A stretch of 64,000 bases of DNA from Halomarina litorea (GCF_024227715.1 NZ_CP100448.1:1819655-1883654), one strand, 5' to 3'. Shown: positions 3 through 54,909, numbered from the stretch's first letter. Program-made: numbers and translations. Notes: generated by a model from the sequence alone, not told the origin.

Positions 3-1058
3 CGACTCCTGCGGCGACTGCTCTTCTGGGGGCTGTTCCTCCCGCTCGGGGATCGGTGGTCGGTCGGCGCGGTTCGCCGCGGTGCGGACCGCGAGCGCGG
101 GCGCGTCACGACGCTGGCTTCGGCCGCGTTGCTCGCGCAGGTCGTCGCCGTCTACGCGACGAACGCCGTCTTCAAACTCCGCGGCGGGGAGTGGACCGGC
201 GGCGACGCCCTCCGGTACGCCCTCGCACTCGACGCCTACGCCACCCCGCTCGGGGACGTGCTGGTCGGCTTCCCCGACCTGCTCGCGGTCCTCGGGTGGA
301 CGTGGCTCGCGATGGTCGTCGCCTCGCCGCTCCTCCTCGTCCTGACGGGCATCGCCCGCGCCCTGTTCGTCGGGGCGTTCCTCGCCGATCACCTCGGGAT
401 GCTCGGCACGATGAGCCTCGGCCTCTTCCCCCTCGTCTCGGTCGCGTCGCTCCTCCCCTTCCTCCCCCCGCGAGTCTGGGACGCCACCGAACGGCGGGTC
501 GTTGTACCGCTGGGAGCGCGCCCGCGGGCGAGGCGTGCGCGCGAACGGGTGTCAGGGGCACTCGCCCCGCACACGGGGTCGAGCGACCGGGTCACCCGGT
601 GGGGCCGGCGGGCGGGGACCGCACTCGCGTTCGCCGGCCTGCTGGTCCTGCTGGTGTGGAACGCGGCCGCACTCGGCTACGTGGACGTGGCCGACGGCGA
701 CTCGTCGGCGGACCTCTCGGACCGTCGGTGGGACATGTTCGCGAACCCGCCGACCGCGGAGCGGTGGTACGTCGCCGAGGGCCGCCTCGAATCGGGCGAA
801 CGGGTGGAGGCGTTCCGGATGCCGCCGGGCGGGGACTACACGAACGCGCGCTGGCGAAAGTACGCCGGGTCGGCGTCGTGGGGGGACGCCTCCGTCCGCC
901 GGCACATCGCGTCCTACGCCTGCGAGCGCTGGAACGCGGGCCACGAGTCCCGCGTCGAGGCGGTGACCCTGCGCGCCACGGAGCGAACTACGACCTTCGG
1001 CGGGCCGGACACGGTCGACCGCGCCGAACTCGGGACGTACCCCTGCCGTCCGTCCTGA
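3..1058 (+). CDS. HTTM-domain membrane protein, 5' end outside the window
   Basis: The frame is open from base 3, so the true start lies left of the window; about 351 residues are visible. The first visible segment, a hydrophobic stretch around LLFWGLFLPLG, followed by several hydrophobic helices up to about residue 160, looks like the second half of an HTTM (horizontally transferred transmembrane, vitamin K-dependent gamma-carboxylase-like) domain. A further membrane helix near residue 210 (LLVLLVWNAAAL) leads into a soluble C-terminal domain of about 130 residues with no motif I recognise. Haloarchaea usually encode these as proteins of 400-500 residues, which fits a missing N-terminus of 50-100 residues. 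The substrate is unknown. The family assignment is from remembered pattern, not from alignment. Confidence 0.7.
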   Translation, partial: RLLRRLLFWGLFLPLGDRWSVGAVRRGADRERGRVTTLASAALLAQVVAVYATNAVFKLRGGEWTGGDALRYALALDAYATPLGDVLVGFPDLLAVLGWTWLAMVVASPLLLVLTGIARALFVGAFLADHLGMLGTMSLGLFPLVSVASLLPFLPPRVWDATERRVVVPLGARPRARRARERVSGALAPHTGSSDRVTRWGRRAGTALAFAGLLVLLVWNAAALGYVDVADGDSSADLSDRRWDMFANPPTAERWYVAEGRLESGERVEAFRMPPGGDYTNARWRKYAGSASWGDASVRRHIASYACERWNAGHESRVEAVTLRATERTTTFGGPDTVDRAELGTYPCRPS

Positions 1059-6176: not shown

Positions 6177-6668
6177 ATGTCGTACCGAGGAGAGGCACCC
6201 GCGGAGACGGCCGCCCCCGGCGAGTTCGACGTCGCGTGGGCGTGGAAGGGCGGGGCCGTCGCCGGACTCGCCGCGACGGTGGTGATGGGTGCGGTCATCA
6301 CCGTCGTCGACCTCCCGACGCTCCGCGGGGCTATCGCCGGCCTCTACGGGTTCGAGGGGAGCCTCGTCGCGGGGTGGCTCGCGCACCTCGTCCACGGGAC
6401 GCTGTTCGGGGTGCTGTTCGCGTGGCTCCTCTCGGACCCGGGGCTGTACCGGGTCCACGAGTGGGTCTGGAAGAGCGTCCTCGCGGGCGTCGTCTACGCC
6501 GTCGTCCTCGCCGTCGTCGGGGCGGGCATCGTGATGCCCATCTGGCTGGACGCGGTCGGTGTCGCCGCACAACCGGGGATTCCGAACGTCACGACGGCGT
6601 CGCTCGTCTGGCACATCGTCTACGGCGTCGTCCTCGGCGCGCTGTTCCCGTTCGTCGACGACCTCTGA
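6177..6668 (+). CDS. Hypothetical four-helix membrane protein
   Basis: 163 residues from the ATG at 6177. After a polar N-terminus of about 20 residues there are four hydrophobic helices, near residues 23-42, 62-84, 98-118 and 138-158. No catalytic motif is visible. Similar small haloarchaeal proteins are sometimes labelled histidine kinases by transfer, but no His-kinase feature exists here. It sits between the PfkB kinase and the convergent isomerase gene with only 16 bases to the latter, and I infer no role. Confidence 0.7.
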   Translation: MSYRGEAPAETAAPGEFDVAWAWKGGAVAGLAATVVMGAVITVVDLPTLRGAIAGLYGFEGSLVAGWLAHLVHGTLFGVLFAWLLSDPGLYRVHEWVWKSVLAGVVYAVVLAVVGAGIVMPIWLDAVGVAAQPGIPNVTTASLVWHIVYGVVLGALFPFVDDL

Positions 6669-6684
6669 GTTTCGTACTCGACGA

Positions 6685-7647: not shown

Positions 7648-7668
7648 ACCACCGATTCGACGGCGATA

Positions 7669-7677
7669 CGTAAAAGG
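7669..7677 (-). promoter_or_regulatory. TATA box of the ribose-1,5-bisphosphate isomerase gene
   Basis: On the minus strand this reads about CCTTTTACG, 22-30 bases before the ATG at 7647. Confidence 0.45.
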
Positions 7678-7693
7678 GAGGTGGCGAGTCCGG

Positions 7694-8824
7694 TCAGTCG
7701 GCCCGCGGGGCGGCCTTCCCGACGGTTATCTCGCCGCGGTCGAGTTCGGCCTCGACCTCGCGGGCGGCCTGCACCATGTTCTCCATCTTGCCGTAGGCGA
7801 CCTTCCGGGGCAGGAGCTTCAGCCCGCAGTCCGGCGAGACGGTGAGTCGCTCCGGCGGGACGACCTCGAAGCCCTTCGTGATGTTCTCCTTGATCTCGGC
7901 GACGGGTTCCACCTCCGCGACGTGGGCGTCACAGACGCCGAGTGCGAGGTCCATCGTGAACTCGTGTTCGGTGAACACGTCCAGTTGCTCGTAGTCGCCG
8001 TTGCACAGTTCCACGTCGAACTCGTCGACGGGGTAGTCGAGCACCTCGGGGTAGATACGGGAGTAGTCGCCGTAGCAGACGTGTAGGCCGGTTCGAACGT
8101 TCTCTGGGATGCCGTCGGTGATGTGTTCGAGGCACTCGCCGACGATGGCGTGGTCGTCCGGGGTGGTGGCGAGGGCGGGTTCGTCGATCTGGATGTAGCG
8201 CGCGCCCGCCTCGACGAGTTTCTCGACTTCGAGGTTCACGAGGTCCGCCAGCGCGTACGCGAGTTCGGCCTCGTCCTCGTAGTGCTCGTTGAACGACCAC
8301 TTCGCGAGCGTGTAGGGGCCGGTGATGGGCACCTTGACGGGGCGGTCGGCCACGCCGTCGGTGAACTCGAACTCGTCGACCAGCCACGTCTCGTCGTACT
8401 CCACCTCGTCGACGACGCTCGGCTTGTCGAAGTAGTTGTGACCCCACACCTTCACGGGGCCGTGGAACTCGTAGCCCGCGATGCGGTGGGCGAAGTACTC
8501 GACCATCTCGTTTCTGCGCATCTCCCCGTCGACGACCACGTCGAGGCCGGCACGCTCGTGTTCGTTCGTGATGAGACGGGAGGCGTCGTCCTTCGCCTCC
8601 TGCCAGTTGGCCTCGTCGAAGTCGACGTCGACGTCGAACCCGCCGCGCGGTTCGTCGCTGGCGCGGTCGGCGGCGCTCACTTCGAGTTCGCCGTGGTAGA
8701 GGTCGCGGGCCCGGTTGAGCCACTTGGGCTTGGGGTACGACCCGACCACCGTGGTCAGGACGAAGTGGTCGTTCTGGTGGTCGGCCGGGCGGAACTGCTC
8801 TCTCACGTCTGGTGTGTCACTCAT
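7694..8824 (-). CDS. MetE-type methionine synthase, catalytic zinc subunit
   Basis: 376 residues of cobalamin-independent methionine synthase fold (C-terminal catalytic barrel only; full bacterial MetE is about 750). It methylates homocysteine at a zinc site. Zinc-type ligands are visible at H248 and C250 (GLHVCYG) and C333 (PDCGLK). The conserved barrel pieces VGSYPKP (28-34), ITGPYTL (167-173) and QIDEPAL (212-218) are present. The start is the ATG at 8824, whose last three bases overlap the stop of the upstream paralogue (ATGA), so the two are translationally coupled. The longer frame to 8965 runs through the upstream gene. The methyl donor of archaeal core MetE enzymes is often a corrinoid protein rather than folate. 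Confidence 0.9.
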   Translation of the reverse strand: MSDTPDVREQFRPADHQNDHFVLTTVVGSYPKPKWLNRARDLYHGELEVSAADRASDEPRGGFDVDVDFDEANWQEAKDDASRLITNEHERAGLDVVVDGEMRRNEMVEYFAHRIAGYEFHGPVKVWGHNYFDKPSVVDEVEYDETWLVDEFEFTDGVADRPVKVPITGPYTLAKWSFNEHYEDEAELAYALADLVNLEVEKLVEAGARYIQIDEPALATTPDDHAIVGECLEHITDGIPENVRTGLHVCYGDYSRIYPEVLDYPVDEFDVELCNGDYEQLDVFTEHEFTMDLALGVCDAHVAEVEPVAEIKENITKGFEVVPPERLTVSPDCGLKLLPRKVAYGKMENMVQAAREVEAELDRGEITVGKAAPRAD

Positions 8825-9813
8825 GCTTCGACCTCGGTCTTGGCGGCCGCCGCGAGGGCGTCCAGTTTCTCCTCGAACTTGCTCGTCGGCAGGTAGAACG
8901 ATTCCGTGTTGAACGTCACGTACGCCGTGTCGAACGACGCGCCGGGTGCGTTCTCGCTCACCCACTCGACGCGCTCGCGGACGGTGTCGGGGGACTCGAC
9001 CTTCGTGTTCTGCCCGTCGACGAGGCCGAGCGAGATGCTGTCTTTCGTGCCGTACTCGTTGATGTTGTAGAGGTTCTGCTCGTGGTCGGTGACGAAGTCG
9101 TAGCCGATGGCGTCCACGTCGGCGTCCAGCAGGTGGGCGTGGACCTTCTCGGTCAGCGCGCCGTAGAACGTATGGACGACGACGTCCGCGTCCGTCGCGC
9201 CCGCGAGGCGGTCGATGGCCTCGCTCGCGCGTTCGTCCTCGCCGTCGCCGGGGGCCTCCTCCACGAGGGAGGGTTCGAGGACGAACAGCGTCGCGTGGTC
9301 GGGGAACGCCCCGACCTCGTCGACGAGGAAGTCCGTCACGCCGTCGAGCAGGTCGTCGCCGTAGTGTTCGTCGGTCGCGAGGTCCGCGAGGGAGTACGGG
9401 CCGGGGACGACGGCCTGCAGGGCGTCGGTCTCGACGGTCTCCGCCGCGGTTTCGAGGTCGGCGGCCATGTCGCCGTCGAAACCGAGGTCGCCGGTGATGA
9501 CCGGCTCCCGGTAGAAGTTGTTGTTGTCGTAGTAGCGGACGATGCCGCGCGTCTCGACGTTGTCGTGAACACAGAGCGGGTGGGCGAGCATGTCGTCCCA
9601 GCGGTACTGGCCCTCGACGATGCGGTCCAGCCCGGCGCTCCGCTGTCGGTCGATACCCTCGCTCCGTGCGCGGTCGTACTGCGCGACGATCTCCTCCGAT
9701 TCGTCGCCGCTGATGAGGTCGTCCTTCTGGTGGCCCTTGAGGTCGGAGAGGTCCGACTTGGCCCAGTCGGGGAGGGGAAACAACCCCGTCGTGGTCGCGA
9801 CTAGCTCGGTCAT
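8821..9813 (-). CDS. MetE-like paralogue lacking the zinc cysteines
   Basis: 330 residues with the same barrel fold as its neighbour (TTTGLFPLP near the N-terminus, VVPGPYSLADLA and LFVLEPSL in the middle). The positions equivalent to the catalytic cysteines are changed: VVHTFYG replaces HVCYG and FNTES replaces PDCG. It therefore probably cannot bind zinc and may supply the methyl-donor binding half or a structural half, as the N-terminal domain does in bacterial MetE. Two start codons abut, GTG at 9816 and ATG at 9813; I use the ATG because MTELVATTTG is the usual N-terminus and a TATA box lies 26-35 bases upstream. First gene of a two-gene operon with the zinc subunit. Confidence 0.88.
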   Translation of the reverse strand: MTELVATTTGLFPLPDWAKSDLSDLKGHQKDDLISGDESEEIVAQYDRARSEGIDRQRSAGLDRIVEGQYRWDDMLAHPLCVHDNVETRGIVRYYDNNNFYREPVITGDLGFDGDMAADLETAAETVETDALQAVVPGPYSLADLATDEHYGDDLLDGVTDFLVDEVGAFPDHATLFVLEPSLVEEAPGDGEDERASEAIDRLAGATDADVVVHTFYGALTEKVHAHLLDADVDAIGYDFVTDHEQNLYNINEYGTKDSISLGLVDGQNTKVESPDTVRERVEWVSENAPGASFDTAYVTFNTESFYLPTSKFEEKLDALAAAAKTEVEA

Positions 9814-9838
9814 CACGCGCGGCTACGGCATCCCCTCT

Positions 9839-9848
9839 GATAATATTT
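9839..9848 (-). promoter_or_regulatory. TATA box of the methionine synthase operon
   Basis: On the minus strand this reads AAATATTATC, 26-35 bases before the ATG at 9813. It lies directly after the stop codon of the upstream methyltransferase gene. Confidence 0.6.
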
Positions 9849-9849
9849 C

Positions 9850-10434
9850 CTACTCAGGAAAATTCCTCAGAGTAATCTCCCAGACCGACAGCGTCTCGAA
9901 GGGGAACGACTCCTCGCCGACCTGTCGGGCGTCGAGGCCCTGTTCTTCGGCGTGGGCGCGGACCGCCTCGGGGTCGGTGAGCGAACTCACGAGCAGGTAC
10001 GCCCGACCCTCGGGCGCGAGGACGCGCGGCAGGTCCGCGAGGAACGGTTCGATGGCCCGCCGGCCGTCTTCCCCGCCCGAGAGGGCGTACTCCATCCAGT
10101 CGTCCCACTCGTTTTCGGGGTCTGTCGGGAGGTAGGGCGGGTTGAACAGCACGACGTCCACCGGCCCTCGGATTGGTTCGAGCAGGTCGCCGCGGAGGAC
10201 CGACACCCCGTGCTCTCGCGCCTCGCGCACCGCGAGGGGGCTGATGTCCACGCCGACGACACGCGCGTCCGTCGCCTCCCCGACGCGCGCCGCCACGTAC
10301 CCCGACCCCGTCCCCACGTCCACGACGAGGGCGTCCGGGTCGAGGGGACCCATCGAGTCGATTGCCGCCGACGCGAGCAGGTGGGAGTCCTCTGCGGGCT
10401 GGTACACGTCGTCGAGGTCCTCGCGGGAGACCAT
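9850..10434 (-). CDS. HemK2/Mtq2-type glutamine N5-methyltransferase
   Basis: 194 residues. The short archaeal/eukaryotic HemK2 form methylates the GGQ glutamine of release factor aRF1 (and possibly other targets). Motif I VVDVGTGSGYVA (37-48) binds S-adenosylmethionine and NPPY (98-101) is the catalytic motif of amide methyltransferases. It lacks the N-terminal helical domain of bacterial PrmC. The start codon overlaps the stop of the upstream mscS-like gene by one base (TGATG), so it ends a coupled run ksgA-mscS-hemK. This order after L21e, rpoF, DUF655 and ksgA is a long-conserved archaeal translation cluster. Confidence 0.9.
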   Translation of the reverse strand: MVSREDLDDVYQPAEDSHLLASAAIDSMGPLDPDALVVDVGTGSGYVAARVGEATDARVVGVDISPLAVREAREHGVSVLRGDLLEPIRGPVDVVLFNPPYLPTDPENEWDDWMEYALSGGEDGRRAIEPFLADLPRVLAPEGRAYLLVSSLTDPEAVRAHAEEQGLDARQVGEESFPFETLSVWEITLRNFPE

Positions 10435-11528
10435 CAGGCGTCACCCCCGGCCTGCTGGCCGTCCCTGTGGACGTCGCCCGACGCCTCCACGACGCCGTCG
10501 GACGAGCGAGTCGAGACCTCCCGCTGGGGGAACGGGATGGTGATGTCCTCCCCGTCGAACGACTCCCTGACTGCCCCGATGACCGCCGTCTTCGCCTGCC
10601 AGAGGCGCTGTGCGCTCGGGTTGCGTATCCAGAAGCGCAGTTCGAGGACGACGGCGGAGTCCCCGAAGCGCTTGCCGACCACCCTCGGCGCGGGCGTGTC
10701 CATGAGCTCCCCCAACTCCGCCATCCCCTCCTCCGCCAGCGTAGCGGCCCGTTCCACGTCCGCGTCGTAGTCCACGCCCACCTCCAGTGACCCCCGGAGG
10801 CGACCCATCTGCGAGCGGTTGAGTATCTCGTTTGCGGTCACCTCGTCGTTGGGAATCATCACGTGCTCGTCGTCGAACGTCCGCAGCGTGGTGTTGAAGA
10901 TGCTGATGTCGCGGACGATGCCCTCGCTGTCGCCGACTGCCACCCAGTCGCCCACCTCGAAGGGCCGCGAGAACAGGAGGACGAACCCCGCGAACACCGC
11001 CCCGAGGGTCTGCCGGGCGGCGAGGCCGAAGACGACGCCGACGAGACTTGCGCTGATGAGCAGGTCGCGGGGGTTGATGCCCGCCAGCGCGAGGACGAAC
11101 AGCACCGTCGCGGCGAAGATGGCCAGTTCAACGATGTGCTGGAGCACCTCCCGCCGGTGGCTGTCCATGATGCTCGCGTCCCGTTCCTCGAGGAAGATGC
11201 GGGTGATACGCGTCAACGAGTAGGCGACGACCAGCGCCAGTCCGGCGACGAGTGCGAAGAGCCCGACCTCACCCTCGAAGACGAGGGGGCGGAGGCGTCG
11301 CTCGACGAGGTCGAACGCCTCCCAGATTGCCACCAGCGCCACCGCGGCGACCATCGCGGCCACGCTGACCACACTCGCCTGCCCCGCCTCGACGAGAGCG
11401 GCGTCGTACCGGTCGTGGAGCCGTCCGCCCAGCCGGTGGACGAACAGCGCCGTCAGGGCGACGGTACCGAGGACGCCCGCCGTGAGGACCACCCGACCCA
11501 CGGTGGTCGGGTCGACCGGGAGTTGCAT
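10434..11528 (-). CDS. MscS-family small-conductance mechanosensitive channel
   Basis: 364 residues. Four to five membrane helices lie in the first 190 residues. The pore-lining helix and following beta domain are seen around LVGVVFGLAARQTLGAVFAG and the FEVGDWVAVGDSEGIV segment, which is the MscS hallmark. Channel opens under membrane tension and releases solutes on hypo-osmotic shock. The ATG at 11528 overlaps the ksgA stop (TGATG); a GTG one codon earlier is also possible. Its insertion into a translation-gene operon is probably positional only. Confidence 0.92.
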   Translation of the reverse strand: MQLPVDPTTVGRVVLTAGVLGTVALTALFVHRLGGRLHDRYDAALVEAGQASVVSVAAMVAAVALVAIWEAFDLVERRLRPLVFEGEVGLFALVAGLALVVAYSLTRITRIFLEERDASIMDSHRREVLQHIVELAIFAATVLFVLALAGINPRDLLISASLVGVVFGLAARQTLGAVFAGFVLLFSRPFEVGDWVAVGDSEGIVRDISIFNTTLRTFDDEHVMIPNDEVTANEILNRSQMGRLRGSLEVGVDYDADVERAATLAEEGMAELGELMDTPAPRVVGKRFGDSAVVLELRFWIRNPSAQRLWQAKTAVIGAVRESFDGEDITIPFPQREVSTRSSDGVVEASGDVHRDGQQAGGDA

Positions 11529-44050: not shown

Positions 44051-44200
44051 GGCACTGTCTAGTTGACCTCCTGAGCTGGCGTTCTTCCGTCGAGCGACTG
44101 ATGCGGTCGCTGAAAATTATCGTAATGAACGAACACAGCAAGCCACTGGCGGACGCTCAGCCGACTGCCCACCCATGAATTGTGGAAACGGTCAACCTTC
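44051..44200 (-). pseudogene. 3' end of an IS6-like transposase with terminal repeat
   Basis: On the minus strand about 45 codons end in HYDNFQRPHQSLDGRTPAQEVN, the C-terminal pattern of IS6-family (DDE, integrase-core) transposases of haloarchaea; the RPHQSLDGRTPA motif carries no catalytic residue itself. The stop at 44059 is eight bases from GGCACTGTCTAGTT (44051-44064), which looks like the terminal inverted repeat of such elements. The DDE core and the other end are missing, so this is a deletion remnant. Confidence 0.6.
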
Positions 44201-44422
44201 ACTTTGAACAACCGATCAGGGGCGGACGTGAAACGTTCGAGTGGCTCGCAGACGGGGCCTTTCTCGTTCGCCGTTCGGAAGTCGGGACCTTTCGGAAGCG
44301 CCCACCGAATGGGCCGAGAAGGCGCCACACCCCTCCGCGTCGATAACGCGACCGAGTTAACACGCCATAGAAACGCTCTCGGAAAGTTATTCATATCGGC
44401 ACGCGAAGATCCCAATATTCAA
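44201..44422. other. Intergenic stretch with the histidine kinase promoter
   Basis: No credible gene. Open frames run through on both strands but lack the acidic composition of real genes here. TTATTCAT at 44387-44394, 29-36 bases before the ATG at 44423, is the likely TATA element of the kinase gene. Confidence 0.5.
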
Positions 44423-45424
44423 ATGCGTGACTCCACACCACAGATATCCTCCAGTCAGAGTGCCATAGCCGCTCTTGTGCAGAATTTCCCGAATGGCGTT
44501 CTTGTTCTCTTCGACGAGGACCACCGGTATCGGGCTGTGGGTCCGAACGTACTTCCATTCTCGAAGACGAAAGCAACTGAGCTACTCGGGCGCTCAATTC
44601 ACGAACTGTTCCCTGAACAGACTACCCGTCGTCTCGAACCGGAAATGCGTGCGACGATTCAGGGCCACGCACGTTCCTTCGATATCGAGTATGACGACCG
44701 CATCCATCACATCGAGACCAAACCCACGAAGATTAACGGCGAGCCGTATGGTGTTCTCGCCACACAGGACGTAACGCAGGAGCGCGAGACTGCAGATGCA
44801 TTACAGGAACAGAACGAGCGTCTGGATCAATTTGCAAGTATGATCTCACACGATCTCAGGAACCCACTCTCGATTGCCACCGGCCATTTGGAACTGTACC
44901 AAGAAACCGGTGACTCCGCTCATCTTACGGAAGTCGAGAAGGCACTCACCCGCCTCGATGAGCTCACACAGGACCTGCTAACACTTGTACAGCCAAACGA
45001 GATGGCGGACTCCCTCGAGGACGTCTCGTTGAGTGCGGTCGCCCATGATGCGTGGGAGATGATTGAGACCCGTGACGCGAGCTTGACGGCCTCTGACTAC
45101 TACGTGAAGGCAGACCGTGGCCAGTTGCAGGCGCTCTTCGAGAATCTGTTCCAAAACGCAATCGGACACGGTGGTGACGAGGTTACGATTCGGGTTGGCG
45201 CTCGCGAAGACGGCTTCTACATTGAAGACACGGGAACAGGAATCCCCGAAGAGAAGCGCGAAACCGTTTTCGAACATGGCTTTTCAACGGGGTACGGAGG
45301 GAACGGCGTCGGGCTTACCATCGTCAGTCGAATCGCCAACCACCACGGTTGGTCGATCGAATTGACCGAGGAGGAATCCGGTGGGGCACGCTTCGAGTTC
45401 ACTGGCGTTGAGGTCGCTGACTGA
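44423..45424 (+). CDS. PAS-domain sensor histidine kinase
   Basis: 333 residues from the ATG at 44423. A PAS domain lies at about 15-120, the HisKA dimerisation helix has H143 in MISHDLRNPLS, and the HATPase domain has NLFQNAIGHG (N box), DTGTGIPEE and GYGGNGVGLTIV. No membrane helix, so it senses a cytoplasmic or membrane-diffusible cue. Runs convergently with the receiver/PAS protein, whose stop is three bases away; the pair may work together although each has its own promoter. Confidence 0.92.
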   Translation: MRDSTPQISSSQSAIAALVQNFPNGVLVLFDEDHRYRAVGPNVLPFSKTKATELLGRSIHELFPEQTTRRLEPEMRATIQGHARSFDIEYDDRIHHIETKPTKINGEPYGVLATQDVTQERETADALQEQNERLDQFASMISHDLRNPLSIATGHLELYQETGDSAHLTEVEKALTRLDELTQDLLTLVQPNEMADSLEDVSLSAVAHDAWEMIETRDASLTASDYYVKADRGQLQALFENLFQNAIGHGGDEVTIRVGAREDGFYIEDTGTGIPEEKRETVFEHGFSTGYGGNGVGLTIVSRIANHHGWSIELTEEESGGARFEFTGVEVAD

Positions 45425-45427
45425 CCG

Positions 45428-46924
45428 CTACGCTGGAACAGAAGCCGTTTCTTCGGGGGCGGTTATCACACCGAACCCACGAATCGTTCCTTCGGGAGTA
45501 TGACTAGCGATGATCGTCATGGGCGCTGCGAACGTGCTACCGTCGCTCCGGCACCATTCTACTTCTGCCGTCACTTCGCCGTCCTTCCGAGCAGACTCGA
45601 TAAAACGCTCAGCGCGACTTCCATCAGCCGAGTCTGATGAGAGTAGTGTATCGAGATGGAGGCCGAGAACGTCCTCGACCGAATGTCCTAGCAGGTCTCT
45701 GGCGTGATCGTTCCAGCGAGTTAGGTACCCCTCGTGGTCCAGGGTGTAGAACGCGCTCCCGTCCGCGATCTCTAAAAGGTGGTAGAATTCTCCATATTTC
45801 GTCGCTGTTGACCGTTCTCTGGTGAGGTCTTGGGCCGTACAGACAATGCTTCCACTTTCCGTCTTCGCCAATCGGTGATCCGTAACGAGTCGGTTGCCTT
45901 GCTTCGTGAGACGGACGGTCTCACCGCTCCAGTACCCCTGCTTCGATACTTCTGGGAGGATATTATGTTCGAGTCGGTCTGCTTCCTCATTGTGATAGAG
46001 GAGTTTCCAAGAACGGCCATTGAGTTCCGACCGCTCATAGCCGAAGAGCGAGGCAAATGCAGGGTTCAGGTATGAAAACGTTCCATCTGGTTCCACGAGA
46101 CTAATCCCCTCGGTCGCAGTCTCGATGACGCGAAGTCCGTGATCCCCCTTGTACGCCGTGATATCCTGGACATAACCCACGATTCTAGCAACGGATCCGT
46201 CCTCGTTGAGAATCGGCTTACTCTGTCCGCGTACCCAGTGCACACCCTGTTCGGGATGGATCACCCGATATTCAATCTCATCAGGCGTTCCGTTTGATAG
46301 CTTTTCCATCGATACCAGAGCTTTCTCACGGTCGTTTTCGTGGATGTGGGTGAGAAATACGTCCGGCGTGTCCTCAAGCACCTCCACGGGGATGCCCCAG
46401 ATATCTTCGAACGCGGAATTGATGAAAAGCAGCCCGCTCCAATCTGGAGTAACGCTAAACAATATATCCTCTGAGTTTTCAGCAAGTTCCGAGAATCGCT
46501 GTTCTGTCTCTCGGATCACCTCTTGTGCATTGTAGTTAGCGACGGCGTTCTTGATCCGGTTCGCGAGAATTGTGTACTGGCTGGTGCCTGTCTCCTTCTG
46601 AAGATAGTCAGTAACGCCAGCAGAAATCGCCTCACTTGCAACATCCTCGCTTCCCTTCCCCGTGTATAGAATGAATGGGACGCGAGGATGAGTTTCCCGG
46701 ATTGTTGTGAGGAAGTCGAGACCAGACTGACCCGGCATATCATAGTCCGAGACGATACAGTGGAATTCCCCATCTGAAAAGGCCTCAAGACCGTCACTCA
46801 CGTTCGTCTTAGAGTCGACAACAAATCGGTCATCCTCCCGATTGAGAAACATCGCAGTTAGTTCAGCCAGGTCTGGTTCATCGTCGACGTGGAGGACCCG
46901 GATCTTGGGCGGAAGAGAGTTCAT
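45428..46924 (-). CDS. Response regulator with REC and three PAS domains, no kinase
   Basis: 498 residues. Receiver domain at 8-125 with acidic pair D14-D15, phospho-acceptor D60 in IVSDYDMP and K109 in DYLQKE. Three PAS domains follow at about 145-265, 270-375 and 385-490. There is no HisKA, HATPase or DNA-binding domain, so output must pass through protein contacts, likely with the convergent kinase. ATAATTTAG (46952-46960, plus strand) lies 28-36 bases before the ATG and could be its TATA element. Confidence 0.9.
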   Translation of the reverse strand: MNSLPPKIRVLHVDDEPDLAELTAMFLNREDDRFVVDSKTNVSDGLEAFSDGEFHCIVSDYDMPGQSGLDFLTTIRETHPRVPFILYTGKGSEDVASEAISAGVTDYLQKETGTSQYTILANRIKNAVANYNAQEVIRETEQRFSELAENSEDILFSVTPDWSGLLFINSAFEDIWGIPVEVLEDTPDVFLTHIHENDREKALVSMEKLSNGTPDEIEYRVIHPEQGVHWVRGQSKPILNEDGSVARIVGYVQDITAYKGDHGLRVIETATEGISLVEPDGTFSYLNPAFASLFGYERSELNGRSWKLLYHNEEADRLEHNILPEVSKQGYWSGETVRLTKQGNRLVTDHRLAKTESGSIVCTAQDLTRERSTATKYGEFYHLLEIADGSAFYTLDHEGYLTRWNDHARDLLGHSVEDVLGLHLDTLLSSDSADGSRAERFIESARKDGEVTAEVEWCRSDGSTFAAPMTIIASHTPEGTIRGFGVITAPEETASVPA

Positions 46925-47426: not shown

Positions 47427-47951
47427 ATGGGGAGTCTTTCCGCGTCGGCGAGTGGTGAGGCGCTTCCGGCGTCGGTGGAGACGCAAATCGAGACGCAGAG
47501 CGAGCCCTACACATCGGCTGCGTTCTTCCACTTCAAGGCGACGGGCTCGCTCGAACGCCACCACGCCTACCACGCTGCGTACGACTCAGACGCGTTCACC
47601 GTCGACTTCGAGGCCGACTACGAGTCGGGAATCTGACCCGCACTCGCCGAGGTCACCGGGTACGAAGCACTCACACCGGATGGTGGAACGCTCAAACCGT
47701 CTCTTCCAGTGAACTGGACTACCGTAAGTCGGTTAGATCGGACAGTCTTCCAGCGCCGAGACATCGACCACTACGTCGTCCCCTGTGACGGGACCGAGGA
47801 GTGGCTGGTCCTGCTCTGTGCGCAGGGTGACCGTGCGTATCCCGCCCCGCTCGACAAGCGAACCGTTCCGATTGAAGAGAGTCCTGCTCTCGCCGTGCAG
47901 GAACTCGTCGCTGAGAGCAACGACCTCGTCGAACCGGAAGAGGATGTGTGA
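47427..47951 (+). pseudogene. Gene of about 175 codons broken by one in-frame TGA
   Basis: A single frame with acidic, haloarchaeal-like composition runs from an ATG at 47427 to the stop at 47949, interrupted only by TGA at 47634-47636. Before the stop it reads YTSAAFFHFKATGSLERHHA and DFEADYESGI; after it PALAEVTGYEALTPDGG and VPCDGTEEWLVLLCAQGDRA. A Trp codon (TGG) at the break would restore it. I do not recognise the family. The antisense frame at 47733-48143 is basic and is taken as a shadow. Confidence 0.55.
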
Positions 47952-48139
47952 GAAGAATCTTCGCTTCTCCCGAGCCACCCACCCAGTGTTCAACACGGTT
48001 ACATGATTGGTCGAACCGGGTTTCAGTTCACACGGACGTCGGGAAGGTGCGACTGTCCGACCCATCAGGATAGTGACCCGGTCACGGCGCCGCTTGGATT
48101 GTGGTTTGCCGAGCGAGTCAAAATCGAGCAAATTCACGG

Positions 48140-49165
48140 TCATTCCGCTGCCGCAAATCGGAATCCGTCTTGACTATAATAATAAACTACTGCATCCTCA
48201 ACCACGACATACACGTTCCGATCGAGATCATGGATTACCCGATTGTTCGTATCAATCGCAATATCAATTAATCCTTCTAACGAGTCAATTGAGACGGTTG
48301 TTCCGGCAAACGAATTCGATAATGAGCCAGTGGAGATCCATTCTGAATATCTGATTTCATCAACGCGTTGTTCGAGTCGCCGTTGGTCGAATCCACGATG
48401 ATAGCTGATGGCAATGGCACCAGCTACTACAAGCAGTCCAAAACCAATACCCCCAGCTAGCGCATACCCAATCGGGCCCCGAGCAGGAACCGGGACTTTC
48501 CGCGTTACGGGGGTGCTGTGAGTCCGTTCAAGGGGTTCTGCCTCAATAGTATACCAGGAGTCAGTGAGTCGTACTGGAACGGCCTCTGTTAACTCTCCGG
48601 CATACTCATCCGTTTCGTACGAAACCGTTACAAGTAGCTGAACCCGGACCGTCCCCGCTTGCCCGATCTCGGAGTCAATTTCGTCGAGTCGGGTGTCCAG
48701 ATCGCGAATGTCGAGCGACGTTTTGGTTACGAACTCACCACTCGATGTAGTACGTTCGTTTTTAGCTATCAGATGAGACTCCTGCCAGAATACAGATCCA
48801 TCATGAGCCACCTGATACCGGATACGTATCTCTTGTTCAACATGTGTGCCTTGCATCTTTGGAAGAGTCGTGCGCTGTGTGAGAGTAACCGAAGGTGTCG
48901 AAGCAAGAAGGTACACTGGCTGATCCTGTAATTCGACTCCGGAACTGTAGAGGGAGGTATTTCCCGTGGTAATTGCGCTTGTGTGGAGTTCAGATCGGAC
49001 TGTCTGCTTGTTCGTATGGTCAGTAACTTCGGTTGTCGGAGGGTTTGTGTATACCCATCCTGAAACTCCCAGAAGCAAGATCCCAAGGATGGAAAGCCCA
49101 ATAATTACACTCGGACCGTACCGAGCAACTAAGACCTTCACGCGAAGAATCGCTAATCGACTCAT
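48140..49165 (-). CDS. DUF5305-like double-anchored membrane protein
   Basis: 341 residues. A membrane helix at about 18-40 (SVIIGLSILGILLLGVSGWV), a mostly beta ectodomain of about 185 residues, a second helix at about 230-252 (GYALAGGIGFGLLVVAGAI), and a cytoplasmic C-terminal domain of 85 residues. This layout matches haloarchaeal DUF5305 proteins that sit beside signal peptidase genes. The ATG overlaps the stop of the exported protein upstream by four bases (ATGA), so it is the last gene of a coupled four-gene run. Role unknown; anchoring or assembly of the exported proteins is a reasonable guess. Confidence 0.72.
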   Translation of the reverse strand: MSRLAILRVKVLVARYGPSVIIGLSILGILLLGVSGWVYTNPPTTEVTDHTNKQTVRSELHTSAITTGNTSLYSSGVELQDQPVYLLASTPSVTLTQRTTLPKMQGTHVEQEIRIRYQVAHDGSVFWQESHLIAKNERTTSSGEFVTKTSLDIRDLDTRLDEIDSEIGQAGTVRVQLLVTVSYETDEYAGELTEAVPVRLTDSWYTIEAEPLERTHSTPVTRKVPVPARGPIGYALAGGIGFGLLVVAGAIAISYHRGFDQRRLEQRVDEIRYSEWISTGSLSNSFAGTTVSIDSLEGLIDIAIDTNNRVIHDLDRNVYVVVEDAVVYYYSQDGFRFAAAE

Positions 49166-49665
49166 GCATTCACCTGTACTTCGCGATCAAGAGCTTTCAC
49201 AGTTAATCCTGGGGCAGAAGCTGTGATGTGAAAATACACGATCTCATCAGTAAGCGAACTGTCGTCGGGGATCTTGATTTGTACCGTCTCGGCCGTTCCT
49301 TGTGCAACTGTAAATGTGGTTTCGTTACTGTAGTTGACACTACCCGCGCTAATGTCACCAATGGGTATTGAATCGTTTCGGAGTGTGACCGTGATTGTGA
49401 CGTCCCGCCCAAGGTGATTCGTAATGGTCACTAAATCAGATGTGTCGTTGATATAGACTGACTTCGAACTGTTGATTTTCAGGGCACCATTTGTATCACC
49501 AACGACATTGAGGTTAGCTCCTCTGGACGCTTCTCCCTGAGTAAACGACGCAGCAGGGAGGCTGGCACTGACGACCAACACACCGATGAGTACCAGTCCA
49601 CATAAGCGAATGAATGAACTGTGGGACTCCACACGCGTACGAGAACGTCGTTGAGGTCTTCTCAC
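49162..49665 (-). CDS. Small exported beta-rich protein B
   Basis: 167 residues from a GTG at 49665 that overlaps the signal peptidase stop (GTGA); a GTG at 49677 is also possible. Basic N-terminus RRPQRRSRTR, hydrophobic core LCGLVLIGVLVVSASLPAA and a likely cleavage before FTQGEASRGA make a signal peptide. The mature part begins ANLNVVGDTNGALKIN, very like the start of exported protein A (NVNVVNDDTG), and continues as predicted beta strands. Resembles small haloarchaeal exported proteins of the DUF1102 kind. Likely client of the adjoining signal peptidase. Confidence 0.7.
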   Translation of the reverse strand: MRRPQRRSRTRVESHSSFIRLCGLVLIGVLVVSASLPAASFTQGEASRGANLNVVGDTNGALKINSSKSVYINDTSDLVTITNHLGRDVTITVTLRNDSIPIGDISAGSVNYSNETTFTVAQGTAETVQIKIPDDSSLTDEIVYFHITASAPGLTVKALDREVQVNA

Positions 49666-50675
49666 AGTTCCCGCCACCTCCGCTTGAGTGCTCGGACTGA
49701 CCGACTTTCGACGGATCGTACCGGCCGCTTTCCATCGATGCCTACGAACATCGCAATCATGATTGGGAACATAATTACGCCGACTGTCGCACTTCCAGCG
49801 AGAAGTGGATGGATCCGATGAAGGCGTCTAATCACGCCTATCGGGAGAACTGTGACGTAGCGGTTAACAGTGACAGAAGTTGTGACTACACCGGTTTGAG
49901 ACGGCGGTGGGATTCGTACTGAGACAGTGATTGTAGACGCGTTACGGGTCTGGTTCGTGATCGCCATTCCGTCTGCACTGACCATGTACGCAGTCAATGG
50001 AACCGTCGACCGATTGATTACAAGTGTCTCTGTAGTCGGTTCGCCTACGGTAAGCCTGTTGGGCCCAGAAGCTCCGGAGTCAAGAGCAACGTATGTGAGT
50101 TGCTCCGTGTGTCCACCGATAAACTGGAGGCCGATGGCACTTATCACTGCGACAGCAAATATTGGCCACAGGACATCCCGTACGCGTGGAACTGACCGAG
50201 ACGGCCGCGTTGGGGTGCGTTCACGGAGTCCCCCGAGTAGTAGAACCAACCCTAGAAGACTGGTGATCTGAATCCGGTGGGCTTGAATGAATCGGACGGC
50301 ATGCCCAAGTCCAGGGATGACGACTGGATTTCCGTGGATGGCGAGCACTCGTCCGCGAATTTCATCTGGGCGTACGTACGAGGCACCTCCTGCCTGGTCG
50401 GTTGATGGATTGGCATCGCCCTTCGTTATGAACCCGTGTTCTGACTGGCCAACAATCCGGTGGGTAGTATACGAATTTCGTTCGGGTGACCAAAATGTGA
50501 CGATGTCACCCACGTCAACGTCGCTGGCTGGAACCAACAGATACCCATCGTACTGATGGATGGTTGGTTCCATACTGCCCGAGTACACGTAAGAAAGTTG
50601 GACGGGAGCCGTAGCTGGCATGAGTGCCAGGAGGCACAGGAGTCCAACGACTACGAGACCAGCGCGTTTTAGCAT
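49662..50675 (-). CDS. SipW-like signal peptidase I with extra C-terminal domain
   Basis: 337 residues, about twice the usual archaeal length. The catalytic part (1-150) has the nucleophile S34 in YSGSMEPT, H72 in YTTHRIVG (the Ser-His arrangement of archaeal, ER and SipW enzymes rather than Ser-Lys), and D87 in TKGDANP. A helix near 140-150 (ITSLLGLVLLLGG) and another near 172-190 are followed by an Ig-like beta segment (about 195-270, with TETLVINRSTVPLTAYMVS) and a final helix near 285-312. The C-terminal half resembles the beta domain of exported proteins. Sits between two exported-protein genes, so it probably processes them. Confidence 0.85.
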   Translation of the reverse strand: MLKRAGLVVVGLLCLLALMPATAPVQLSYVYSGSMEPTIHQYDGYLLVPASDVDVGDIVTFWSPERNSYTTHRIVGQSEHGFITKGDANPSTDQAGGASYVRPDEIRGRVLAIHGNPVVIPGLGHAVRFIQAHRIQITSLLGLVLLLGGLRERTPTRPSRSVPRVRDVLWPIFAVAVISAIGLQFIGGHTEQLTYVALDSGASGPNRLTVGEPTTETLVINRSTVPLTAYMVSADGMAITNQTRNASTITVSVRIPPPSQTGVVTTSVTVNRYVTVLPIGVIRRLHRIHPLLAGSATVGVIMFPIMIAMFVGIDGKRPVRSVESRSVRALKRRWREL

Positions 50676-50705
50676 GGAAAGATCGATTTAAACGTTGGAT
50701 CGGGG

Positions 50706-51254
50706 TTAGGCCGAAACCGTGAGGGTTCCGGACAGATCCGTCGAACTCGTCACACCGTTGGTGTCGACGACGATCACGACGTAGTAGGTCGCACCGGCAG
50801 CAGCGCCAGTGATCGTGTCTGACGTCGACTCTTCGCTAATCGTCGCAACCTGCGTGTTGGAGCTGTCGTAGATCTGGAACTCAATGTTTGCATCAGCATC
50901 GCCAGCGCCAGCGCCCGTGTAGCTAACGGTGATATCGTGGGATTCTGCGTCGAGGTTGGAAATCTTGAACGCGCTCTGGTTTATTGCGTCGGACGGATTG
51001 CCGAGTTCGTAGTGAGACTCAGCGTTCACGCCCCCTGCACCGCCCTTCGTGAAGTCGATTTCGAGAGCGCCCGACGCGTTTTGGAAGACGAGGGGGCCCG
51101 AGGTCCCGTCTGCAAGCGCGAGGAGACCGGTGTCGTCGTTTACGACGTTGACATTCGATGACCGTTCAACCGTACCACTCGTGTATGCACTAGCACCGAG
51201 CGTAGCTGCGACGATGATCAGCACCATCGCGACGCCCGCAATCTTGAATCGCAT
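50706..51254 (-). CDS. Small exported beta-rich protein A
   Basis: 182 residues. Signal peptide MRFKIAGVAMVLIIVAATLG, with likely cleavage near ASAYTSG. The mature protein starts ERSSNVNVVNDDTGLLALAD and has a beta-strand pattern with ISNLDAESHDITVSYTG and GATYYVVIVVDTNG. The DUF1102-like N-terminus and size (about 150 mature residues) recall SipW/TasA-class fibre proteins, though I cannot show homology. First gene of the cluster; the next gene starts 30 bases downstream. Confidence 0.75.
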   Translation of the reverse strand: MRFKIAGVAMVLIIVAATLGASAYTSGTVERSSNVNVVNDDTGLLALADGTSGPLVFQNASGALEIDFTKGGAGGVNAESHYELGNPSDAINQSAFKISNLDAESHDITVSYTGAGAGDADANIEFQIYDSSNTQVATISEESTSDTITGAAAGATYYVVIVVDTNGVTSSTDLSGTLTVSA

Positions 51255-51452: not shown

Positions 51453-51632
51453 TTACAACAGTTGCCGCCAGGCGATTGACTGGTGGTGAGGGTCAGATAT
51501 CTTAAAGAGACTGTCGCAGTTAGTGTATTTCCAGACATATGCTCCGAGTTCTTGATAGCCACCATCCGAACGAGGGTTCGAAGGGATCCAAGTCCGATTG
51601 CAGGTTGGACACCTCTGCGGCCGCGAACTCAT
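51453..51632 (-). CDS. 59-residue Cys-containing microprotein
   Basis: 59 residues, starting at the ATG at 51632, which overlaps the stop of the HalX protein by four bases (ATGA). Near the N-terminus is CPTC (residues 8-11: PQRCPTCNRTW), and a lone cysteine appears in YTNCDSLF (residue about 40). This looks like a zinc ribbon whose second knuckle has lost one cysteine. The rest is polar with aromatic residues and no hydrophobic helix. Coupling to the regulator suggests a partner or antagonist; function unknown. Confidence 0.6.
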   Translation of the reverse strand: MSSRPQRCPTCNRTWIPSNPRSDGGYQELGAYVWKYTNCDSLFKISDPHHQSIAWRQLL

Positions 51633-52270
51633 TTGTCGAGTCCCATAAATAGTCGAGTGAAATCGCTATCATCGAAATCGGTGACTAGCCCATCGATTTG
51701 GGTTTCAACGCAGTCAAGTTCCTCAGAGAACGTGGTATATTGTCCATCTCTCTCAAGTTCCTCGATGGAGCTATCAGTTTCAAGCGTGGCGAGCTTCGAG
51801 GCGATATTTAAATGAGATTGAACCAACCTGTGATAGGATTGTCGTCGAAGGAGGAGCGTTACCGTCTCCGACAATTCCGACTCAGTTACTGGCCGGATTA
51901 GGTGCTCGTCGGCAGTACTCTGTGCTACGCCTGTTTTGATATTTGGACTTACGAGAGCAATAAGAGATGATGAAGGGTATTGATCTCGCAAGGCACTAAG
52001 GAATGTCTCTTTACAATCCAGATCCCGGTTGCTGTTATAAATCACCGTGTTAACCGAGGTGGAACCCGATGAAAGAGCAGTATCTATCGAAATTGCAGAT
52101 ACAGTAAACTCCTCTATGCTATTCTCGAAGAGAGAGAGGTGTGAAGAAGGAACGAGTTCATTGCTGGCGTCTACGAACAGAATTTCGATTTGGTCCTCAT
52201 GAACAGGAATATTGTTTTTCGCCGTCCCTTCCGACTCGGTCCCACTTTTGGACGTAGATGAGGAAGTCAT
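51629..52270 (-). CDS. HalX-domain protein with degenerate receiver
   Basis: 213 residues. The C-terminal 65 residues match the HalX domain (YHRLVQSHLNIASKLATLE, then LDCVETQIDGL). The N-terminal part keeps the receiver outline (EILFVDAS start, SSLIALVSP strand, HLIRPVTESEL end) but the phospho-acceptor strand reads VNTVIYNSNRD with no Asp at the expected place, the acidic pair is only VDAS and the conserved lysine is Arg. It should not be phosphorylated in the normal way. Together with the 59-residue microprotein it forms a two-gene operon facing the exported-protein cluster. Confidence 0.78.
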   Translation of the reverse strand: MTSSSTSKSGTESEGTAKNNIPVHEDQIEILFVDASNELVPSSHLSLFENSIEEFTVSAISIDTALSSGSTSVNTVIYNSNRDLDCKETFLSALRDQYPSSSLIALVSPNIKTGVAQSTADEHLIRPVTESELSETVTLLLRRQSYHRLVQSHLNIASKLATLETDSSIEELERDGQYTTFSEELDCVETQIDGLVTDFDDSDFTRLFMGLDK

Positions 52271-52398
52271 TACTAGACCTCGTGTGTTGTATCACCGAAA
52301 TTGAACTAGGTAAAAGACTAAGCGTGAGGGTTCGGGAGCGCTAATTGTTTAATCTAGACGTAGAGTACCACCTCATCTGAAACGCAGGTTTATCGGAA

Positions 52399-54909
52399 CT
52401 ACTTGAAAATGGTTTTTAGAAGTTTGTGAGTTCCAATTCGAACGTGACGGTGGAATGTCGGCGGAGAGACGTCCAAGCGATTTGCGATTTCTTCACCAGT
52501 GCTCTCACGTGGCCATTCGAAGAAGCCGTTCCGGTATGCGACTTCCAACACATCGCGTTGACGATCTGTGAGGTGATCTCCCGTGAGGTGGGTTACACCT
52601 TCACTGTTTTTGGAGGAGACCTGTGTTCGACGAACGAGTTCGGCATCCGAGAATACAGAGGTACAACGTTCAACGAAGGAGTTTACATCAGCAGTTTGCG
52701 GTAGATGGACCACAAGATGGCCTCCATCAGGAGAGGCTTGGAGCGAATGGAGTTTGGCCCCCTGTTCCCCAAGGACTGTCGCAATCTCGAAATCCGAAAC
52801 GGCGACTTCAAACAGGTCTCCGTCATCTTCTAATGGTGTTACTTGTTCCACCGACACCTGATGGGTTATAATATCTTGAAATGGTTCAGCGTTACATCCG
52901 CTCACGGTGAGGTACAACAGCCACCCCCCATCAGATTGAGGAAGCATTGAATTGAGATCAAGTGTGCAGTCAGTATGGCGCGCCAGTCGAAAGAAGACAT
53001 CATTTACCGCTCCGATTCGGAACTCAAGTTCCGTATTGCTCTGGAGAACTAGTGCCTGCCTCCGTTCAATTGCATTTAACGCATTTGCGACGAAGTTACA
53101 CACCTCAGTTAATATACTCACTTCTTCTGCACTAAATGAAGTGGCTTGATCGGCATAGATCTCCAATACGCCATAACTGCTGTCTTTAAAGACTATTGGG
53201 ACGGAGATCATTGAATATAGTCCGTGATCAAGGGCCTTTCGGAGCCACGGCTGTGCATTCAGATTTTTTCTGAACTGTCGAACCGAAACAGGCTTACCGG
53301 AATCAAGTGCTTGCTTTGCAGGTAACGATCCCAGTTCACTAGATGTGTTCATGTCCCCGAAGAGTTCGTCGAGGAATCCGCGATTTGAGCCAACCCACGT
53401 TCGAGGCGATATTTGGCCCGATTCATCGATGGTGCCAATCCAGGCGAATTGATATTGTTCGGCTTTGGTTAAATCGTCACAAACCGCTTGTTCAATCTCA
53501 TCACGGGTTGTGGCGTTCACAATATCTCGTTGAATAGTTCGTATAGTTGAATTGATGCGGTCAAGTCGAGTAAGTGTCTTATTCTGCTCTCTCAACACTT
53601 CTTCCTTCTCAAGCAGTTCTTGTTCTCGTTCGTTCCTCTGAAATGCAGCGGTCGCATTTGCCGCCAGCGTTTCTGCAAACCGCACGTCATCTTGAGTGAT
53701 GGAGTCGCGGGATGTTGATCCAGAGAGTAATACACCATATTCACCAAGGGGCACAATGAGTTCACTCCGAATTGAAGAGTCCTCGTCGTATACGTTGTCT
53801 TGGTCGTGTACGTCAGCACAAGCACCAGTTTCCCCATCAAGGAAGACATCCCATGCAAGACTACGCCCGGAAGTAAAGGTCGGTAACTCGCCAATGAGTT
53901 CCTCCGTCTTCGGTGTCGATGCCTGTGGTTGTAAGACCCCCTCGTCTTCATTCCATAGGTACAGGCCAATGGCAGATAATCCTAAAATTTCATCGGCAGA
54001 CTCCACGACGATCTCACTGATCTCTTCGATGGTTCTCGCTTGTATCAGTCCTCGTGACGTTTGGTGCAGATGTTCGAGTGATTTTTGCCGTTCTTTTTGA
54101 GTGGAAATGTCGATCAAAGCACCAGTGAGTCGAACAGGTTCCCCATTTTCGTAGGTGATGTACCCCCGACTAATGGTATGGGCATACGTACTATCTGCTC
54201 GGCGGAAGCGATATTCCATTTCGACCAGTGCATCCTGGTTTGCGAGTGTATTCTCGATCGTATCGAAGACACGTTGACGGTCAGCTGGATGCACGCGGTC
54301 CTCCCACCATTCAAACTCGTACATGGCCTCCTCATCGGAATATCCGAACGGCTGTCCGATTCCCTCACTCCACCAAAAATGGTTATCTGTGACTTTCCAA
54401 TCGACAAACGCATCAGACGACGCACGCGCCGCCCGTTCATACCGACGTTTGAAATCTTCAAGTTCCTTGTCAGCTCGATATTGATCAACAGCATTCCGAA
54501 TACGGTTCGCTAATAGCTCAAACCGCTCTTTGTTGCCTCCCTTTTGCAAATAGTCAGTAACTCCCGCAGAGATAGCCTCACTTGCAACTTCTTCGTCACC
54601 CTTGCCGGTGAAGAGAATGAATGGGAGATCTGGATATATCCCCCGTACTTTGCGGAGAAATTCAATCCCGTTTTGAGCGGGAATCTCATAATCACTGACA
54701 ATGCAATCGATAGATCCACCGTCTAGTTGGTCGAATCCCTTAGAGGTGCGGGTCTCTGTCACGACCGTAAATTCATCCTCAATCTGATTCAGATATGTTG
54801 CTGTCAAGTTGACAAAATCCAAATCATCATCGACGAGGAGAACGTGAATAGATTCACGTCCATTCTCGCTCGTAGATGTTTCGTCAGGGGAATCAACTTC
54901 CGAAGTCAT
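52399..54909 (-). CDS. Bat-like regulator: REC, PAS, two GAF, HTH-10
   Basis: 836 residues. Receiver at about 20-140 (acidic residues 27-29, D73 in IVSDYEIP, K in DYLQKGG). PAS at about 160-280, GAF 1 at about 290-435, GAF 2 at about 455-610, the bacterio-opsin-activator-type domain at about 620-765, and a C-terminal HTH-10 (LTDRQRDVLEVAYRNGFFEW, then GEEIANRLDVSPPTFHRHV). A one-protein integrator of phosphorylation and small-molecule signals acting on DNA. It lies upstream of the HalX gene on the same strand, 128 bases away, and may control the adjacent surface cluster. Confidence 0.9.
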   Translation of the reverse strand: MTSEVDSPDETSTSENGRESIHVLLVDDDLDFVNLTATYLNQIEDEFTVVTETRTSKGFDQLDGGSIDCIVSDYEIPAQNGIEFLRKVRGIYPDLPFILFTGKGDEEVASEAISAGVTDYLQKGGNKERFELLANRIRNAVDQYRADKELEDFKRRYERAARASSDAFVDWKVTDNHFWWSEGIGQPFGYSDEEAMYEFEWWEDRVHPADRQRVFDTIENTLANQDALVEMEYRFRRADSTYAHTISRGYITYENGEPVRLTGALIDISTQKERQKSLEHLHQTSRGLIQARTIEEISEIVVESADEILGLSAIGLYLWNEDEGVLQPQASTPKTEELIGELPTFTSGRSLAWDVFLDGETGACADVHDQDNVYDEDSSIRSELIVPLGEYGVLLSGSTSRDSITQDDVRFAETLAANATAAFQRNEREQELLEKEEVLREQNKTLTRLDRINSTIRTIQRDIVNATTRDEIEQAVCDDLTKAEQYQFAWIGTIDESGQISPRTWVGSNRGFLDELFGDMNTSSELGSLPAKQALDSGKPVSVRQFRKNLNAQPWLRKALDHGLYSMISVPIVFKDSSYGVLEIYADQATSFSAEEVSILTEVCNFVANALNAIERRQALVLQSNTELEFRIGAVNDVFFRLARHTDCTLDLNSMLPQSDGGWLLYLTVSGCNAEPFQDIITHQVSVEQVTPLEDDGDLFEVAVSDFEIATVLGEQGAKLHSLQASPDGGHLVVHLPQTADVNSFVERCTSVFSDAELVRRTQVSSKNSEGVTHLTGDHLTDRQRDVLEVAYRNGFFEWPRESTGEEIANRLDVSPPTFHRHVRIGTHKLLKTIFK

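Follow-up and report, generated by a model that had tools for sequence, protein, structure and literature searches.

The minus-strand segment 48140–51254 of a 64,000-nucleotide stretch of the Halomarina litorea genome (GCF_024227715.1, NZ_CP100448.1:1819655-1883654; the whole stretch analysed is hereafter called the window) carries four genes that encode, in this order, an exported protein (A), a SipW-like signal peptidase, a second exported protein (B) and a protein with the DUF5305 domain. The cluster is real and coherent and is most likely a surface-fibre operon, a variant within the archaeal Taf kind and not a kind of its own. It probably represents a compact form of the haloarchaeal Taf fimbria whose signal peptides are not of the twin-arginine translocation (Tat) type, and would make up a self-contained unit for a thin surface fibre linked by donor strands. 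This reading rests on the fold class of A and B, the active-site residues of the peptidase, a processing motif shared by A and B, and the cohesion of the four genes, all of them shown computationally.

Organization of the Cluster

All four open reading frames (ORFs) were found packed on the minus strand where the initial annotation had placed them, and the 30-base gap between A and the peptidase (50676–50705) as well as the overlaps GTGA (49662–49665, peptidase/B) and ATGA (49162–49165, B/DUF5305) that it described were confirmed. The features of the cluster are as follows.

50706–51254, minus strand: gene A, exported beta-sandwich protein of 182 amino acids (aa), proposed TafA/TafE-like fibre subunit
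51135–51185, minus strand: mature N-terminus of A (YTSGTVERSSNVNVVND), with the motif shared with B, proposed donor strand
49662–50675, minus strand: SipW-like S26 signal peptidase, 337 aa
50574–50576, 50460–50462 and 50415–50417, minus strand: codons of the peptidase active-site residues S34, H72 and D87, respectively
49806–50123, minus strand: extra beta-rich domain of the peptidase, about residues 185–290, between the last two clear transmembrane (TM) stretches
49162–49665, minus strand (alternative GTG start at 49677): gene B, exported protein resembling immunoglobulin (Ig)/PapD domains, proposed TafC/TapA-like cap
48140–49165, minus strand: DUF5305 protein (PF17231), 341 aa, proposed anchor or assembly factor

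Exported Proteins A and B

The AlphaFold2 model of mature A, built from an alignment of 27 mature A sequences, has a predicted local distance difference test score (pLDDT) of 82 and a predicted template modelling score (pTM) of 0.80. When the Foldseek candidates were aligned with this model by VIA-align, the three highest ranks were taken by 7pnb, the thread Saci_0406 of Sulfolobus acidocaldarius (Z 8.7, 10% identity), 7ueg, the AbpA bundling pilus of Pyrobaculum calidifontis (Z 8.6, 8% identity), and 9p0a, the "Tafi" pilus of Natrinema sp. J7-2 (Z 8.3, root-mean-square deviation 3.2 over 140 residues, 20% identity), with Z values close to those that unrelated folds may attain. The match is nevertheless persuasive because the three best structures are all archaeal fibre subunits, and the modelled A can be assigned to the fold of donor-strand fibre subunits from archaea. 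With the thread and with AbpA the likeness lies in the subunit fold, in contrast to the low sequence identity; the thread is also known for isopeptide bonds and heavy glycosylation. A type IV pilin was rejected as a reading in view of the signal peptides of the peptidase-I type and the all-beta sandwich fold, and a viral origin was rejected since a search of IMG/VR returned no relative of A.

The model of mature B (pLDDT 85, pTM 0.78) matches complete Ig-type domains of the PapD/MSP kind with Z values of 9–10 in VIA-align. This Ig fold is common, so B is read as a closed Ig domain with a loose tail and not as a chaperone. Of the two exported beta proteins, A has the fibre-subunit fold, whereas the model of B shows a closed Ig/PapD-like domain and not an open-groove subunit like A. 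The first 20 residues of mature A are unpaired and modelled with low confidence, and residues 1–14 of mature B have pLDDT values below 50; such flexible N-termini are consistent with what is expected of unpaired donor strands.

Directly after the signal peptide, A and B carry the motif [FY][ST]xxxxxR...D, i.e., an aromatic residue, Ser or Thr, five residues, Arg, a hydrophobic run and Asp; cleavage of A is predicted at A23|Y24, and mature B is predicted to begin at F45, counted from GTG 49677. The motif is present in 44 of the 54 A/B homologues; among 163 other ORFs that have a hydrophobic stretch near the N-terminus, 8 show it. The mature N-terminal pattern noticed earlier in both proteins is thereby confirmed, and the motif columns T2, R8, V14 and D17 are conserved in the alignment of A. 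The modelled chain of 9p0a begins at residue 28 (aligned range 28..213 of 188 modelled residues). This residue is the phenylalanine of the A/B motif, homologous to the predicted first mature residue of A and B, so the chain of a solved haloarchaeal pilin begins, within its modelled part, at the predicted A/B cut. Computational comparison of the sequences shows, then, that the signal-peptide/mature N-terminal motif of A and B is also that of the solved Tafi pilin.

Signal Peptidase and DUF5305 Protein

The peptidase matches Peptidase_S26 of Pfam (1.3e-5) and, over the cut-off, the archaeal model TIGR02228 (1.8e-18), while its match to the Bacillus SipW model NF046067 (7.5e-8, 32.2 bits) stays under the cut-off of 190 bits. 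Among solved structures, those closest to it are SEC11 subunits of the signal peptidase complex (profile match to SEC11C, 5.3e-14). The SipW-like Ser-His active site assigned in the initial annotation was verified: the enzyme has the S26 fold and a Ser-His-Asp site of the endoplasmic reticulum (ER) type, whose residues S34, H72 and D87/D93 do not vary among 13 homologues. Three clear TM stretches are seen by hydrophobicity. With 337 aa the protein is far longer than the 158 positions of TIGR02228, and the extra beta-rich stretch, a putative domain that this model lacks, probably lies outside the cell. In the tree, the window peptidase belongs to a branch separate from the taf peptidases (support 93/95); two rows with other gene arrangements fall inside this branch. 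Viral matches to the peptidase were limited to partial ones in two human faecal phage records, in keeping with the rejection of a viral origin.

The DUF5305 protein is recognized by PF17231 of Pfam at 5.8e-40 (137.5 bits, cut-off 29). It comprises two TM stretches, a beta-rich ectodomain and a conserved C-terminal domain of about 85 aa, the latter probably cytosolic, and is proposed to be a membrane anchor or assembly factor. Relatives are present in 113 of the 146 genomes of the family. Two genomes, G040 and G041, are listed as different species and show identical DUF5305 match coordinates on contig C1 (3389605–3390075); the two assemblies may share one chromosome.

Conservation of the Four-Gene Arrangement

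A scan based on the peptidase alignment, with one genome per species, yielded 36 loci. The order A-peptidase-B-DUF5305 is kept in all 27 of the best loci (L072–L098), a count which, since the scan was seeded by the window's own type, shows cohesion and not frequency. These loci come from several families and include the genera Haloarcula, Halospeciosus, Halomarina, Halolamina, Halobellus, Halorientalis, Salinibaculum, Halarchaeum, Halonotius, Halohasta, Haloferax, Halorubrum, Haloquadratum and others. The arrangement is not due to chance. In 24 of the 27 relatives an in-frame start of B gives the identical 4-base overlap with the peptidase gene, and GTG 49665 is therefore a likelier start of B than GTG 49677. 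Clustering of the neighbours at the 27 loci revealed no clear fifth partner, the groups mostly resembling antisense ORFs. A candidate fifth gene downstream in the window (47733–48143), which overlaps the DUF5305 stop by ATGA, was dismissed, as the plus-strand ORF 47709–47951 scores better and covers the same stretch.

Two further loci, L101 and L104, are bacterial and derive from metagenome-assembled genomes (MAGs) of Bacillota, one of them labelled Erysipelotrichaceae, with GC contents of 39% and 37%, respectively; being near-identical, they count as one lineage seen twice. L104 has all four genes in the haloarchaeal order, including an ATGA overlap between the peptidase gene and B, and its neighbours encode GGDEF, LuxR-type HTH, PfkB and Indigoidine_A domains. 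Both loci (L104, 5491–9616; L101, 5490–9615) keep this order, and in both the DUF5305 protein bears an extra C-terminal MshEN domain, the N-domain of type II secretion/pilus ATPases.

The genome of H. litorea itself contains a second, paralogous set of adjoining peptidase and DUF5305 genes with exported proteins around them. At this locus (L034, C1:1426000-1441000, positions 6202–10578) DUF5305, a SipW-like peptidase and an exported protein with an RR-type signal are accompanied by a divergent HTH gene, which is followed by another exported protein with the A/B mature N-terminal motif. One further S26 gene elsewhere in the genome resembles the housekeeping enzyme. In the uncultured archaeon A07HN63 (L098, 6001–7094) the peptidase gene is broken up into two ORFs, and about 2 kb separate B from DUF5305; this is a decayed or interrupted copy. 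A plasmid of Halobaculum halophilum (L132, 6612–8894) carries the cassette followed by genes for STAS-domain, anti-sigma-factor-like and ATP-binding proteins, possibly a partner-switch regulator.

Relation to Taf and Other Fibre Systems

The NCBIfam release of June 2026 includes models for TafA (NF052520, "fimbrial protein"), TafC (NF052521, "fimbrial protein") and TafE (NF052522, "fimbrial adapter"), and TafA is found over its cut-off in 14 of 142 genomes of the window's family. The taf locus L125 encodes TafE (224.6 bits), TafA (250.6 bits) and TafC (567.6 bits), all over cut-off, and it also holds a SipW-like peptidase and a DUF5305 gene; L126–L130 look alike. The window cluster resembles the Taf/Tafi pilus of Natrinema sp. 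J7-2 (9p0a) in the pilin fold of A and in the signal-peptide/mature N-terminal motif, B belongs to the class of the TafC N-terminal domain, and both kinds of loci share the two membrane genes. TafC matches were obtained for 5 of 11 B homologues (best 3.4e-10), and weak TafE matches for 6 of 13 A homologues. In Haloferax mucosum (L097) the B homologue combines a TafC match (1.8e-14) with a Laminin_G_3 tail, TafC of L125 likewise ends in Laminin_G_3, and the B homologue of L095 has a C-terminal lamin-tail (LTD) domain; for these reasons B is put in the place of TafC, and A in that of TafA/TafE. Although homologues in the same gene position carry Laminin_G_3 or LTD, B of the window is devoid of a lectin-like tail. 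The C-terminal tails of the B/TafC homologues thus differ (L095, 7125–7850; L097, 7188–8246; L125, 9543–10682), as would be expected if a terminal subunit carried exchangeable binding domains. B is better read as a TafC/TapA-like terminal piece, i.e., a cap.

To the seeding of the scan several other points must be added that weigh against a fibre of the Taf kind. The VIA-align Z values of the three best matches of A exceed those of the next rows by less than 1, and Foldseek alone is weak for A, its sole match below 0.001 being 9bab, a "Hyper2 tube". The profile of A matches the entry "Structure of Natrinema sp. J7-2 Tafi pilus" (PDB 9p0a) over its full length (residues 1–180, E 0.0013) and that of B matches the N-terminus of the same entry (E 4.4e-4), with the signal peptide included in both cases, so that the scores are inflated by the hydrophobic make-up of signal peptides. 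Against the NCBIfam models, the window's own A and B gave no TafA or TafC match, and their TafE matches, 17.5 bits for A and 14.2 bits for B, remain far below the cut-off of 155. Other differences concern the signal peptides, which begin with MNRR.. or MKLNRR.. (twin-arginine-like) in proteins of the TafA/TafE type, whereas those of the window, starting with MRFKIAG in A and MRRPQRRSRTR.. in B, lack the usual twin-arginine motif, and the locus itself, as the taf locus is larger and scattered and the window cluster has four genes. On account of the A and B scores below cut-off, the separate peptidase branch and the missing RR motif, the cluster is called a compact variant with non-Tat-type signals and not a Taf locus.

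The haloarchaeal surface-fibre system supposed in the initial annotation is well supported for A, which has three solved fibre folds and the Tafi pilin profile match in its favour; at the level of the whole locus it gains support from the conserved gene order and from the occurrence of both membrane genes in genuine taf loci. Its choice of TasA as the model was not upheld, the nearest relative being the haloarchaeal Taf/Tafi pilus. In a structural search of the kind that had been proposed, A matched 7ueg, 7pnb and 9p0a, but no TasA or camelysin match to the window proteins is among the Pfam, NCBIfam and PDB sequence and structure matches listed, and as far as these lists go a direct TasA/camelysin reading was not supported. 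The likeness to the sipW-tapA-tasA operon of Bacillus and to sipW-tasA/calY of B. cereus consists in a SipW-type peptidase beside small exported beta proteins, and B shares with TapA the plan of a closed Ig-like domain with a flexible N-terminus, described in part in PMC10151520. In contrast to the Bacillus operon, the window peptidase has an extra beta domain and DUF5305 is an added part.

Genomic Context

The GC content is 47–59% over 44–57 kb of the window, in contrast to 66–71% at 40–43 kb. A core gene of the left flank is present in all eight genomes of the genus, while the cluster's DUF5305 type is not present in all of them; in those that carry it the cluster sits at other places, and the transporter gene of the right flank occurs in only three genomes of the genus. 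The location in an accessory island, suggested earlier, is consistent with the low GC content and the other positions within the genus, which fall short of proof; an accessory, moving cassette fits these data and the occurrence of a relative on a Halobaculum plasmid. No boundary of a mobile element was seen, and no search aimed at one was made. Regulators lie on both sides of the cluster (51629–54909 and 44180–46924): a HalX protein, a Bat-like protein with the architecture receiver-PAS-GAF-BAT-HTH_10, a receiver-PAS protein and a histidine kinase. The cluster may be linked to them in its regulation. A defence system was rejected as an interpretation because none of the proteins has a PADLOC match.

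Proposed Mechanism and Alternative Explanations

By analogy with the Sulfolobus thread, for which a signal of the signal-peptidase-I type and donor-strand complementation are described (PMC9715654), with TasA/TapA as partly described in PMC10151520, and with the Tafi structure entry, the following course may be proposed. A and B would be exported unfolded, and the adjoining SipW-like peptidase, possibly dedicated to these two proteins, would cut A (A|YT) and B (S|FT) immediately ahead of the aromatic residue, so that a flexible N-terminal strand of about 17 residues would become free. Each A would insert this strand into the groove of its neighbour A, and a fibre would be built in this way. 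Since its fold is closed though strand donation is possible, B could donate a strand and not accept one, and would sit at one end of the fibre as a cap or starter, the position of TafC or TapA. With its two anchors, DUF5305 would hold or guide the growing fibre at the membrane and may report to the cytosol through its C-terminal domain.

An alternative, which we regard as considerably less probable, is that A and B are matrix or capsule proteins that do not polymerise and that, monomeric or membrane-held, serve adhesion or coating after maturation by the SipW-like peptidase. The Foldseek matches of A are mostly generic beta-sandwiches, and maturing and holding surface proteins could be all that the peptidase and DUF5305 do; yet the three structures that match A best are fibre subunits without exception, TafA is the pilin family of a solved pilus, and taf loci share both membrane genes. 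Common descent with the Bacillus operon, with A as TasA and B as TapA in a true sipW-tapA-tasA orthologue, is improbable. It would explain why the same functional set recurs (a peptidase, a fibre protein, a closed-fold protein with an N-terminal tail), and it accords with the weak match to the SipW model, the four genes in Bacillota MAGs and the cut predicted ahead of an aromatic residue (A|Y, S|F), which recalls the phenylalanine at P2' near the TasA cleavage site, reported in PMC10269814. It is opposed by the lack of TasA and camelysin among the listed matches, by the Bacillus SipW, which is devoid of the extra domain (NF046067 has 189 positions), and by the Bacillus operon as described in PMC13082335, where DUF5305 is not a member.

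A regulated secretion or surface-sensing cassette, in which DUF5305 and the nearby sensors would signal and the exported proteins would be ligands, with no fibre formed, is very improbable. The HalX and Bat-like regulators, the receiver-PAS protein and the histidine kinase that flank the cluster, as well as the conserved C-terminal domain of DUF5305, could be taken in its favour, but neighbour clustering revealed no clear family shared by most loci that would tie these regulators to the cluster across relatives, and A has a fibre-subunit fold.

Significance

Donor-strand archaeal fibres have been solved, while little is known of their maturation, start, capping and anchoring, and the conserved four-gene order names a likely minimal set of parts for such fibres. 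The exported proteins of the cassette are still "hypothetical" in public records, e.g., on the Halobaculum plasmid, where the relative is annotated as hypothetical - signal peptidase I - hypothetical - DUF5305. More tentatively, and with somewhat more doubt than confidence, the four genes can be regarded as a minimal donor-strand fibre machine across domains, consisting of a fibre subunit, a SipW peptidase with a chaperone-like outer domain, a closed-fold cap and a DUF5305 platform; arranged alike in haloarchaea and in one or more Bacillota lineages, they may link the bacterial sipW-tapA-tasA system with the archaeal Taf, ABP and thread fibres. The cluster allows the SipW-linked fibre systems of archaea and bacteria to be set against each other, and it offers for DUF5305, a family whose function is unknown, a role that can be tested; this role and the cross-domain gene order are the parts worth pursuing.

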